A stretch of 64,000 nucleotides of DNA from Terriglobus tenax (GTDB taxonomy: Bacteria > Acidobacteriota > Terriglobia > Terriglobales > Acidobacteriaceae). The notes below the pieces were generated by a model, which saw nothing but the letters and a program-made list of their open reading frames with translations, was not told where the DNA came from and searched no databases. The position numbers were made by a program, and so were the translations under genes. Of the stretch, positions 32,434 through 36,967 are shown piece after piece (within the stretch, counting starts at the first letter, position 1; each line of letters starts with the position of its first letter). The DNA is taken from contig NZ_JAGSYA010000004.1 of the NCBI RefSeq assembly GCF_025685395.1, positions 1,302,001-1,366,000 of the forward strand, in the 5' to 3' direction.

Positions 32434-32569
32434 CAAAGTAACGGACTCCAGCCCACCGCCCGGCGGTAGCAAACTGCGGTGAAAAACCGCCTGAACTTTT
32501 CCCCTAAGTATAAAGCAAGCGCCTACCCCCTTGCCCTATTCCCGCTACACTGGTACTTGCCTATCTGTC

Positions 32570-34441
32570 ATGGTCGAATCGTCGGAATCCCTGCTCGAAA
32601 CTCTGCTCGCCCCGGGCCGCACTGTTCTATGTGACGGAGCCATGGGCACGATGTTGTACGCCCGCGGCGTGTTTATCAACCGCTGCTACGACGAACTGAA
32701 CATCTCCCAGCCGGAACTGATCCGCTCCATCCACGAGGAGTACCTCCAGGCGGGCGCGGAGATGATTGAAACCAATACCTTTGGAGCCAACGCCATCCGC
32801 CTGGCGCGCTACGGACTGGCTGACAAGGTGTCGGAGATCAACCACGCCGGCGTCAGCCTGGCCCGCAAGGCCGCCCTGCAGTCCGAGGAAAAAACCGCCA
32901 CCCGCGCCTATGTTGCCGGAGCCATTGGCCCCCTCGGAGCACGCCTTGCCCCCAACGGCACCGTAACCGCGCAGCAGGCCCACGACGCATTTGCGGAACA
33001 AATTGCAGCCCTGGCCGCCGCGGGAGCCGATCTGCTGATCGCCGAGACCTTTCCCTCGGTCGCCGAGGCCGAAATCGTCATCCGCGCCGCCAAGGACCTT
33101 GCACCGCACCTGCCGCTGATCGTCATGGTGACCGTGGACGACAACGGCAACACGCTGGATGGCACCACAGCCGAAGAGACCGCCACCCGTCTGACCATTG
33201 CCGGCGCCAGCGCCGTAGGCTGCAACTGCAGCTCCGGACCCCACGCCGTACTGGACGTCATCGAGCGCATGCGCGCCGTGACCCACCTGCCGCTGGCCGC
33301 CATGCCCAACGCCGGGCTTCCCCGCGCCGTGGATGGCCGCAATATCTACCTGACCTCACCCGAGTACATGGCGAGCTTTGCCCGCAAGTTCGCAAAGGCT
33401 GGAGCTGTCTTCATCGGCGGCTGCTGCGGCACCACGCCCATCCATATCAAGGCCATGCGCTCTGCCCTGCGTGCGATTGACGCCCAGCTGACGGCAAAAG
33501 CCGGGGTCACCGACGCCGCACTGGTTCCCGTGCAGCCGCCCGCCTTTGCCGAACGTTCGAAACTGGCCCGTCTGATTGCCGAAAAACAGTTCGTCAATAT
33601 GGTGGAGATCGTTCCACCGCTTGGCATCAACTGCAAAAAAGAGCTGGATGGCGCACAGACGCTTGCGAACCTGGGCGTTCACGTCATCAACGTGCCGGAC
33701 TCGCCGCGCGCTTCGGCCCGCATGTCCGCGCAGTCGCTCTGCGTGCAGATCCAGACGAAGATCGGCATTGAAACGCTGATCCATGTCACCTGCCGCGACC
33801 GCAACCTGCTGGCCCTGCAGTCGGACATGCTGGGCGCATCGTCCATCGGCCTGAAGAATGTCCTCTGCCTGACCGGAGATCCACCGAAGCTGGGCAATTA
33901 TCCGGACGCAACGGCGGTCTTCGACGTCGACGCGATCGGCCTGGTGAACATCGTCCGCAACCTGAACCATGGGCTGGACCTGGGCAAGAACCCTATCGGC
34001 GAATCGACCGGCTTTGCCATCGGCGTCGCCGCCAACCCCGGCGTCGCGGACGTGGACAATGAAATCCGCCGTTTTGAACTGAAGGTCGCCGCCGGCGCCG
34101 AGTACGCCATCACGCAGCCGGTCTTTGACCTGCGCCTGCTGGAGACCTTCCTGCGCCGCGTGGAGCAGTTCCGCATCCCGGTGATTGCCGGTATCTGGCC
34201 GCTAACCTCGCAGCGCAACGCTGAGTTTATGAAAAACGACCTGAAGGTCGCCGTACCGGACGAGATCATGCTTCGCATGCACAAGGCCGGAGAGGTGAGC
34301 GCCGACCACGCCCGCGCCGAAGGCATCAAAATCGCGCAGGAGATGCTGGCCCACGCCCGACCGCAGGTTGAGGGAGTGCAGGTCTCCGCGCCCTTTGGGA
34401 AATACGCCGCAGCCGCCAAGGTGCTGGAGTCCCTGCTGTAA
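32570..34441 (+). CDS. Bifunctional homocysteine S-methyltransferase / methylenetetrahydrofolate reductase
   Basis: 623 residues, matching the YitJ-like fusion of B. subtilis in size. Residues 1-300 are the homocysteine methyltransferase barrel with zinc cysteines (VGCNCSSGP and later FIGGCCGTTP). Residues about 335-620 are the FAD-dependent MTHFR domain (MVEIVPPLGINCKKELDGAQ, HVTCRDRNLLALQSDMLGAS, LCLTGDPPKLGNYP, AEYAITQPVFDLRLLETF). It would reduce methylene-THF and use a methyl donor to regenerate methionine. No SAM or cobalamin riboswitch is recognisable in the 136-base leader. Convergent hairpin repeats follow the stop. Confidence 0.93.
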   Translation: MVESSESLLETLLAPGRTVLCDGAMGTMLYARGVFINRCYDELNISQPELIRSIHEEYLQAGAEMIETNTFGANAIRLARYGLADKVSEINHAGVSLARKAALQSEEKTATRAYVAGAIGPLGARLAPNGTVTAQQAHDAFAEQIAALAAAGADLLIAETFPSVAEAEIVIRAAKDLAPHLPLIVMVTVDDNGNTLDGTTAEETATRLTIAGASAVGCNCSSGPHAVLDVIERMRAVTHLPLAAMPNAGLPRAVDGRNIYLTSPEYMASFARKFAKAGAVFIGGCCGTTPIHIKAMRSALRAIDAQLTAKAGVTDAALVPVQPPAFAERSKLARLIAEKQFVNMVEIVPPLGINCKKELDGAQTLANLGVHVINVPDSPRASARMSAQSLCVQIQTKIGIETLIHVTCRDRNLLALQSDMLGASSIGLKNVLCLTGDPPKLGNYPDATAVFDVDAIGLVNIVRNLNHGLDLGKNPIGESTGFAIGVAANPGVADVDNEIRRFELKVAAGAEYAITQPVFDLRLLETFLRRVEQFRIPVIAGIWPLTSQRNAEFMKNDLKVAVPDEIMLRMHKAGEVSADHARAEGIKIAQEMLAHARPQVEGVQVSAPFGKYAAAAKVLESLL

Positions 34442-35707: not shown

Positions 35708-36967
35708 ATGGCGCGAATCTTTCCTGAACGGCTCCACACTGGTTTTCTGCGAAATCGTCTGCTCCTTGTTCTCCTCTTTCTGGCGGGGGCAGCCTCGCTC
35801 TGGGCGCACCCCGCGCCCGGGAATCCGGCCCCTCCGTTGGAATCTCTGAAGCTGTTGCAAGCGCCAAAAGGAGCGACGGCCGGCTGGAAAAGCCTTAAGG
35901 GGAAGGTCGTGGTGCTGGAGTTCTGGGCCACATGGTGTTCCCCATGTGTGGCAAGCCTTCCGCATTTCAACCAGCTTGTGGCATCGCTCGATCCGAAGAA
36001 GTTTCAGTTTCTCTCCATTGATGATGAAGAGCTGAAACCCATTCAGACATTTCTATCCAAGAAGAAGATGTCCGGATGGGTAGGCGTCGACTCTTCCGGC
36101 AAGGTGTTCGAGCAGTATGGCGTCAATGCAAGACCGACAACCATCATCGTGGATGGGAACGGGAAAGTTGCTGCCGTCACACAGATCGAATCCGTCAGTA
36201 CGGCCGATCTGCAAGCCGTGGCCGAAGGCAAGCATGTAGCCTTCAAGCCTGCGGTGGAGATTATCGAATCAAGCAGCGCCTCCGTCGCAGGCTCCGCGGT
36301 GCGGCCTTTGTTTGCGGTCTCGGTCAATCAGGCTGCTCCCGACGCAAGGTACTCCCAGGTCAATCACCCGCCTACGGGAACCGACTTCCTTGGCAATGAT
36401 GCCGACGGCCTGCTCGCTACCGCCTTCAACGTATTCGAAAACCGATATGTTCTGAAGAGCCCACTGGCGGATGGGCGTTACGATCTCCACGTAAACTTCG
36501 TCGACGTGCCCGATGCCGTCAGCACTTCGGCGATACAGCAGGCCGTTCTTGCAGCGCTGCATCTACGGATCGAACCCCGGACCATGACGAAGCCAGCGTA
36601 TATCCTCCGCACCACGAATGCCAGCAAACGACTGCTTAGCCCGTCGGCATCGACCCACGCCATGAAACGAGGCTACTGGCACCGCAACTTCATTCTGATG
36701 AACGGAACGATGAACGACCTGGCCTATGTACTGGCTACCGGGCTCGAGACCCCAGTTCTGAATGAGACTGGCATCAACGGCACCTTTGACGCACGCTTCA
36801 AAGTCGCTGCAGACGATGTAGACAGCCTGAATGCCACCCTCAAAGAAACTCTCGGTCTGGAACTTATTCCCGGATCACAGGAAATGCCGATCACGGTGTT
36901 TGAGGTAAGCCCGCAGATGGCGAGTACCCCTCTCGCATCAACACAGGTACAGCAGACCAGCCGATAA
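35708..36967 (+). CDS. Thioredoxin-like (TlpA) protein fused to a TIGR03435-type acidobacterial C-terminal domain
   Basis: 419 residues. A signal/anchor segment (LLLVLLFLAGAASLWA) is followed by a TlpA-like thioredoxin domain of about 130 residues with WCSPC in LEFWATWCSPCVASLP and the cis-Pro in ARPTTIIVDG. After a Ser/Ala linker near residue 190, the C-terminal 210 residues resemble the acidobacterial soil family TIGR03435 (FENRYVLKSPLADGRYDLHV; NLNGTMNDL-like MNGTMNDLAYVLATGL; LNETGINGTFDARFKVAADD; SLNATLKETLGLELIPGSQE). This predicts periplasmic thiol chemistry coupled to a domain of unknown role. GAGGGGAAACG precedes the ATG. The gene is somewhat less GC-rich than rpiA. Confidence 0.82.
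   Translation: MARIFPERLHTGFLRNRLLLVLLFLAGAASLWAHPAPGNPAPPLESLKLLQAPKGATAGWKSLKGKVVVLEFWATWCSPCVASLPHFNQLVASLDPKKFQFLSIDDEELKPIQTFLSKKKMSGWVGVDSSGKVFEQYGVNARPTTIIVDGNGKVAAVTQIESVSTADLQAVAEGKHVAFKPAVEIIESSSASVAGSAVRPLFAVSVNQAAPDARYSQVNHPPTGTDFLGNDADGLLATAFNVFENRYVLKSPLADGRYDLHVNFVDVPDAVSTSAIQQAVLAALHLRIEPRTMTKPAYILRTTNASKRLLSPSASTHAMKRGYWHRNFILMNGTMNDLAYVLATGLETPVLNETGINGTFDARFKVAADDVDSLNATLKETLGLELIPGSQEMPITVFEVSPQMASTPLASTQVQQTSR

Follow-up and report, generated by a model that had tools for sequence, protein, structure and literature searches.

The window, by which we mean the whole 64,000-nucleotide stretch of Terriglobus tenax DNA that was analysed, carries at positions 35,708-36,967 of the plus strand a complete open reading frame that starts with ATG and encodes an exported protein of 419 residues in which a thioredoxin domain is fused to a DUF3738 domain. 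The gene begins 95 bp after one that we take, from its sequence, to be rpiA, and it faces a gene that on the same grounds presumably encodes fructose-bisphosphatase. Both were considered as partners and rejected, since by tblastn neither was found at any of 80 related loci (flanks of up to 6 kb), at all 80 of which the fusion itself was recovered as a control. Searches of the 64-kb window with home-built profiles for M56, BlaI, STN and a second DUF3738 domain found none. We note that positions 32,531-34,441 (+) encode a 636-residue protein that reads to us, from its sequence, as a fusion of homocysteine S-methyltransferase and methylenetetrahydrofolate reductase.

The fusion protein has an Arg-rich, basic start followed by a hydrophobic segment (residues 11-33 approximately; 35,738-35,806, +) that would act as a signal peptide or signal anchor and that is modelled as a helix over residues 11-32. 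By a crude regular-expression and hydrophobicity rule, the N-terminus is hydrophobic in 91 of 96 fusions and includes a lipobox in 28 of these, and the export signal that an earlier note on this DNA had proposed is borne out. A ResA/TlpA-like thioredoxin domain comes next (residues 38-172; 35,819-36,223, +), recognized both by Pfam and by structural match, with the redox motif WCSPC at residues 76-80 (35,933-35,947, +). A flexible linker (residues 180-198 approximately; 36,245-36,301, +; pLDDT below 50 at residues 187-196) leads to the DUF3738 domain, which together with a leading strand spans residues 199-403 or thereabouts (36,302-36,916, +) and has a Pfam match and a confident model. Within it lie two repeats, the first at residues 222-302 (36,371-36,613, +) and the second at residues 325-401 (36,680-36,910, +), each with its elements in the order strand-helix-strand-strand-helix-strand, and the second repeat holds the conserved motifs PV.(D/N)ETG..G and LGL.L. 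An AlphaFold model of the whole protein has a mean pLDDT of 89.4, and both domains are modelled with confidence.

The N-terminal domain matches the Pfam families AhpC-TSA (63.2 bits, residues 39-156) and Redoxin (58.8 bits). The thioredoxin fold, the CxxC motif, the cis-Pro position and the export signal are all present, and on these features the protein is a ResA/TlpA-like thioredoxin; it stays below the curated cut-offs of the ResA subfamily model NF002854 (66.8 bits against 170) and of DsbE. The C-terminal domain is a member of DUF3738 (PF12543), which it matches over residues 235-397 (profile positions 3-186 of 190) with 39.6 bits where the gathering score is 22. The earlier note had read the protein as a thioredoxin joined to a TIGR03435-type domain at residues 200-410 or so, and an HMM search does find TIGR03435 (Soli_TIGR03435 of NCBIfam) at residues 226-397 (27.6 bits, E 2.1e-6, profile positions 32-230 of 241), although this score is below the curated cut-off of 40. 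The two-domain architecture is therefore upheld by the Pfam and NCBIfam matches, and by relatives of identical architecture, and the domain is homologous to TIGR03435; by the curated cut-offs, however, it belongs formally to DUF3738 and not to TIGR03435, and for this reason DUF3738 is the preferable name. Our search of the open-access literature, which is not all that is in print, returned no paper that names DUF3738, TIGR03435, PF12543 or IPR017801, and a Solibacter paralogue paper of 2011 (PMC3174227), as far as its passages retrieved with our search terms go, gives no pointer to the family. Public domain databases may already display the thioredoxin-DUF3738 architecture.

The best structural matches of the thioredoxin domain (Z 17-19) include the DsbE-like protein 3gl3 (Z 18.7) and ResA (1st9; Z 18.1). 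Both active-site cysteines, Glu71 (35,918-35,920, +) and Pro143 (36,134-36,136, +) are invariant in an alignment of 51 sequences; we take Pro143 to be the cis-proline site of the thioredoxin fold and the acid at position 71 to be the equivalent of Asp26 in E. coli thioredoxin and Glu47 in PDI, residues that assist the buried cysteine. By a regular-expression count over 96 fusions, position 71 is Glu in 91, Asp in two and another residue in three, and five aligned relatives of solved structure have N, D or K where the window protein has this Glu before FWATWC. As a marker of the fusion the acid was tried and set aside, because only ten other thioredoxins were found at the related loci (E 7, D 2, H 1) and several of these are probably kin of the fusion, which makes them too unfair a control to mark the Glu as special. 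An open-literature search on the buried acid returned nothing. Like ResA, TlpA and DsbE (CcmG), the window protein combines thioredoxin fold, CxxC, cis-Pro position and export signal, but it adds a C-terminal domain of tandem repeats. Thioredoxin domains are likewise joined to a further domain in the C-terminal region of DipZ (2hyx, 5cyy) and in NHLRC2 (6gc1), where the further domains are other folds than DUF3738.

Given that its nearest structures are DsbE/CcmG-like proteins and ResA, the protein might be a thiol reductase of cytochrome c maturation, in the role of ResA or CcmG, with the C-terminal domain holding apocytochrome. We consider this improbable. In ResA a Glu three residues beyond the second active-site cysteine matters; the corresponding position, aligned with the Glu of ResA 4nmu, is Ser83 in the window protein, which also scores below the ResA and DsbE cut-offs. 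Moreover, 56 neighbours of fusion genes were scanned, and the 25 families listed, out of 73, include none of cytochrome c maturation save for DsbD at one locus (L058).

The earlier note had also supposed that the C-terminal domain itself acts in thiol or peptide chemistry, which the fusion does not imply. DUF3738 has no conserved cysteine (13% in the highest well-filled column), so that the domain is probably not itself a thiol enzyme and is probably a docking or sensing module, and its fold hints, weakly, at protein interaction. When the whole protein was submitted to a structural search, the 50 matches listed were led by thioredoxin-type proteins and were silent on the C-terminal domain, which was therefore folded alone (pLDDT 92.6); the strand-helix-strand-strand-helix-strand order again occurs twice. 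The two repeats align with each other by hhalign, in register along 86 columns (E 3.9e-10, against 0.37 and 0.65 for reversed controls), and they match too in 94-95 fusion sequences (E 1.8e-9) and within the branch of stand-alone relatives described below (E 8.8e-5, or 0.0013 in a smaller set). Judged by these profile alignments, DUF3738 is an internal duplication.

Sequence comparison of the domain with solved structures gave at best ribosomal protein L7/L12 (E 0.3), which we rejected as chance, and Foldseek returned no match in the PDB at E below 0.001. A VIA re-alignment of the C-terminal domain placed seven structures on top with Z from 5.2 to 3.3 over 65-79 residues, the eighth having Z 2.6; Z values of 3-5 are in the range that the structural alignment tool flags with a warning. 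The seven are four baseplate or tail proteins of phages and injection systems, a chain of the Salmonella type III needle complex (Z 4.2, 20% identity over 65 residues), PilQ 4av2 (Z 4.1) and a chain of a pilus machine (Z 3.3), of which we take the Salmonella chain to be the secretin InvG and the pilus-machine chain to be PilQ. Six of the seven alignments begin in repeat 1 and finish at the end of repeat 2, and thus do not simply lay one repeat on one N0 domain, a pattern that might reflect a strand exchanged between the repeats. The secretin N0 domain, the signalling domains of TonB receptors, phage gp27 and gp44 and VgrG are described, in the part of PMC3093366 retrieved, as having one common topology, and DALI Z-scores of one member of that topology against others are given there as 5.0-7.3.

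Profile comparison points the same way. A home-made STN profile, built from 29 acidobacterial STN sequences, matches repeat 2 of the fusions (E 8e-4, score 20.0) and of the stand-alone branch (E 1e-3, score 19.4); against repeat 1 it gives E 0.012 in the fusions and no match (E 0.8) in the stand-alone branch. Reversed controls gave 0.11-0.39, and none of 36 unrelated comparisons scored above 8.1. In a smaller first run, three forward profiles gave 0.0026-0.0072 in one register and a fourth 0.79, with reversed controls as low as 0.038 and 0.048. No Pfam STN match was found in the 18 proteins of the window genome in which it was sought. The fold of secretin N0, TonB-receptor STN and phage gp44 domains thus offers the best structural and profile similarity that we found, and the predicted strand-helix-strand-strand-helix-strand unit is common to it and to DUF3738, but DUF3738 has two such units in tandem and the Foldseek match is not significant. 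The structure prediction that the earlier note had called for accordingly yields a confident, duplicated fold, whose halves resemble the N0/STN fold in a way that is suggestive but not conclusive.

A scan of contigs with the window protein gave at least 503 relatives among at least 592 candidate stretches, of which the best 80 were retained. These come from Acidobacteria, Planctomycetota, Latescibacterota, Elusimicrobia, Verrucomicrobia-type bacteria, Bacteroidota, Aminicenantes, Myxococcales and other groups, and 75 of them have a DUF3738-type domain beside the thioredoxin domain (the exceptions are L052, L081, L085, L092 and L094), which answers the earlier note's call for a search for further fusions. 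The count of 75 was made with a home-built profile derived in part from those same loci; Pfam provides an independent count, in which PF12543 is matched by 50 of 51 aligned proteins (the window protein and those from 50 of the 80 loci); TIGR03435, at E 0.01, is matched by 50 as well. Both sets were picked by likeness to the query and are thus biased towards fusions.

Less biased samples were obtained by searching three non-acidobacterial groups with PF12543 alone. DUF3738 is present in 7 of 149 genomes of an Elusimicrobia group (G374; 8 proteins), in 7 of 395 of a Hymenobacter group (G363; 8 proteins) and in 11 of 343 of a planctomycete group (G354; 11 proteins), and a thioredoxin domain accompanies it in 23 of these 27 proteins, as called by motif and, for L183, L193, L199, L200, L201 and L204, by Pfam. 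Of the remaining four, L182, L189 and L203 are stand-alone proteins, and in L194 the domain is joined to a CPBP/Rce1-like membrane protease. Leaving out the three centre genomes, which were picked for bearing the fusion, the proportion is 20 of 24, and leaving out the previously met G379 as well it is 19 of 23. In the sampled non-acidobacterial groups, then, the thioredoxin fusion is the usual form of DUF3738, and the domain occurs beyond the soil acidobacteria, from which it is mainly known. Among these proteins, L189 shows a 178-residue thioredoxin gene followed, six bases from stop to start, by a separate DUF3738 gene of about 241 residues, a pair that is the fusion in two pieces. Two further architectures may be recorded here. 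One is a 1212-residue open frame of the planctomycete group (L204:1492-3447, -) in which a long spacer lies between the thioredoxin domain and DUF3738; the other is the membrane protease fusion of the Bacteroidota group (L194:613-1896, +), in which an unrelated, second kind of membrane protease (Rce1-like/CPBP, 44.7 bits) is joined to DUF3738 (32.3 bits).

For 38 of the 75 fusion loci we reached the genome, and 37 of these 38 genomes match DUF3738 (the exception being that of L097), 28 of them exactly once, in open frames of 397-516 residues. Within the Acidobacteriota the picture is mixed and the fusion patchy. DUF3738 is present in 4 of 60 genomes of one sample, with 22 matches in the window genome, 12 in G105 (with no thioredoxin motif) and one each in G106 and G066, both of them fusions; in 60 genomes drawn from the family the fusion is found only in the window's own (E 1e-20); and 16 of 297 genomes of the phylum match at E 1e-35, at least 12 of them over both domains, two of those with an internal stop, a count of fusions that is a lower bound because six candidates were scored per genome. 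This patchiness might suggest that a thioredoxin was joined by chance, or recently and locally, to one DUF3738 paralogue with no shared function. We hold such an origin to be very improbable, since 75 of the best 80 relatives retain both domains and since the window protein sits in a set of 15 fusions outside the stand-alone clade in a tree (see below); placing it inside that clade is weakly rejected (AU p 0.034). The architecture is beyond chance: it is kept in distant relatives, and both of its domains are confidently modelled.

The 22 DUF3738 matches of the window genome fall in 20 proteins, two of which carry the domain in tandem (L013, 540 residues, and L018, 558 residues; presumably four repeats each). 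One of the 20 is the thioredoxin fusion and one is a fusion to M56 (L019); the others are neither, L021 having been outside the Pfam scan. Stand-alone DUF3738/TIGR03435 proteins of the Terriglobia are homologous to the C-terminal domain of the window protein, the leading strand included, and have in common with it the motifs PV.D.TG..G and LGL.L, but the window protein has a thioredoxin domain in front. In a tree of 138 domain rows, a single starred branch (SH-aLRT 96) unites both M56 fusions with all 34 stand-alone rows of the Terriglobia. The window row falls outside it, within another starred set (99) that consists of 15 thioredoxin fusions, and five stand-alone rows of other groups sit among fusions. 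The tree is unrooted and comes from a quick search, with 58 of 134 inner branches left open, many weak deep forks and several long branches, and it leaves out 24 duplicate copies, the three own-genome duplicates L012, L020 and L022, as well as L200 and matches of fewer than 120 profile positions. Forcing the window row into the stand-alone clade is weakly rejected (AU p 0.034, by a test picked after the tree had been viewed). A single branch of Terriglobia stand-alone copies that excludes the window protein is thus supported, not proven. With so weak an unrooted tree, it is the distribution that would suggest the thioredoxin fusion as the ancestral form.

The stand-alone and M56-fused branch (36 rows) conserves an Arg (97%) and a His (94%) at columns 283 and 289 of the window numbering, which are absent from the window protein and possibly mark a site for a ligand or partner. 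These two columns are not conserved in the thioredoxin fusions. A stretch of about 130 residues that starts with GTWQ precedes DUF3738 in L005 and L010 and lies between M56 and DUF3738 in L153; the likeness was judged by eye, on unaligned sequences, and no Pfam family matches there.

No gene family accompanies the fusion constantly. A constant neighbour was sought among 56 of the 66 close neighbours on the same strand, and no family matches more than five of the 56 (25 of 73 families shown). The commonest, an O-methyltransferase (5 of 56), fits synteny within Elusimicrobia, and it is undercounted since the ten neighbours that were omitted are repeats from Elusimicrobia loci. Sigma70_r4_2 matches three of the 56, and at two loci (L041:4780-5907 and L062:3779-5323) Sigma-70-like, ECF-type genes seem by eye to adjoin the fusion; STN domains work with ECF systems in TonB receptors. 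As to a source of electrons, 35 of the 38 genomes, the window's among them, have a DsbD_TM gene and three give no match; such genes are widespread in any case, as 10 of 14 control genomes have one. At L058 a full DsbD (DsbD_N, DsbD_TM and Thioredoxin_7) begins some 24 bp downstream of the fusion. In G382 the fusion ORF of L176 is preceded, on its own contig and strand, by a DsbD_TM match that ends about 0.4 kb upstream. A supply of electrons through DsbD is supported by these observations but not proven.

Besides the thioredoxin domain, which the earlier note had held to be the best lead to a function and which stands as one, a second lead comes from M56 and BlaI. At three loci (L048, L057 and L059) blaI, M56 and fusion genes follow one another on one strand, with M56 23-35 bp before the fusion and both neighbours over their Pfam cut-offs, and L067 has the same order by home-built profiles. 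In the latter the M56 gene (L067:1776-3648) lies in two overlapping frames, through a frameshift or an assembly error, and the smaller frame matches no Pfam family; the larger frame was scanned in the neighbour set only, where M56 matches four unnamed members. These four loci are among seven rows of one starred clade, the other three of which (L040, L044 and L049) have no blaI-M56 pair. A fifth case, drawn with the planctomycete group (L082), has BlaI (112.0 bits, cut-off 22.6) and M56 (45.1 bits, cut-off 31) 93 bp before the fusion. The pair thus precedes the fusion at 5 of 75 fusion loci, 68 of which have at least 1.5 kb of upstream sequence. Direct fusions of M56 to DUF3738 exist in the window genome (L019) and in G349 (L153), and a blaI-like gene ends 33 bp upstream of L019 (home-built profile, 77.9 bits). 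We also note that the BlaR1-type M56-DUF3738 gene (L019:1483-3363, -; L211:6527-8824, -) lies near the DUF3738 genes L008 and L010, which are on the opposite strand. In BlaR1, according to the part of PMC9834060 retrieved, an extracellular sensor lies behind M56, which is where L019 and L153 have DUF3738.

It is possible, if unlikely, that the fusion serves as redox input or effector in a BlaR1-type switch, where DUF3738 would be an extracytoplasmic module of M56/BlaI and the thioredoxin would set or read a disulfide. The five loci with blaI and M56 directly before the fusion gene, as in the BlaR1/MecR1-BlaI systems, the position of DUF3738 in the two M56 fusions and the fusion of DUF3738 to a CPBP/Rce1-like membrane protease in L194 are all consistent with such a switch. 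Against it, the pair is found at 5 of 75 loci only and is lacking in L040, L044 and L049 of the shared clade; in the thioredoxin branch M56 is adjacent and unfused, those four M56 proteins being without DUF3738; and the M56 gene of L067 is split in two overlapping frames, of which the smaller lacks a Pfam match. The scanned M56-DUF3738 proteins also differ from BlaR1/MecR1 in having no Pfam penicillin-binding sensor, and the window gene lies outside any such operon, with neither blaI nor M56 as a neighbour. Open-literature searches for BlaI with M56 and thioredoxin, and for BlaR1 with BlaI and Acidobacteria, returned nothing relevant. Given the M56/BlaI link, supported but not proven, part of the family may plausibly have a role in redox-coupled sensing, but the window gene has no such context.

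We favour, with a probability of roughly 0.6, the reading that the fusion protein is an envelope thiol-disulfide reductase of the ResA/TlpA type, which DUF3738, as a tandem N0/STN-like module, directs to a partner. The protein would be exported and located in the membrane or periplasm, and electrons from the cytoplasm would arrive by way of DsbD/CcdA. Cys77 would attack a disulfide of the partner protein and Cys80 would resolve it, with Glu71 assisting as an acid, while the non-catalytic DUF3738, through its two N0/STN-like repeats, would dock the thioredoxin on one partner or link it with a sensor of the envelope. What we observe is the architecture, the conservation of the active-site residues, the duplication within DUF3738 and the spread over several bacterial groups; the reductive direction, the docking role and the partner are inferred. 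The neighbours of the window gene offer no partner, which counts against this reading.

The earlier note's view of the fusion as a lead into a large orphan family holds, in that the open literature we searched does not name the domain. DUF3738, with 22 matches in the window genome, gains a predicted fold, an origin by duplication, a distribution and several kinds of partner. A broader reading, which we put forward as rather doubtful, is that DUF3738, as an extracytoplasmic module of tandem N0/STN-like units, serves several outputs alike, namely thioredoxin (the form found across several phyla), BlaR1-type M56 proteases with BlaI, and a CPBP membrane protease. If this were true, the fusion would be the redox arm of an unrecognised class of envelope sensing, and the acidobacterial expansion of stand-alone copies would represent ligand-specific sensors or decoys that derive from it. 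The thioredoxin fusion gives the little-studied DUF3738 family functional leads that can be tested.
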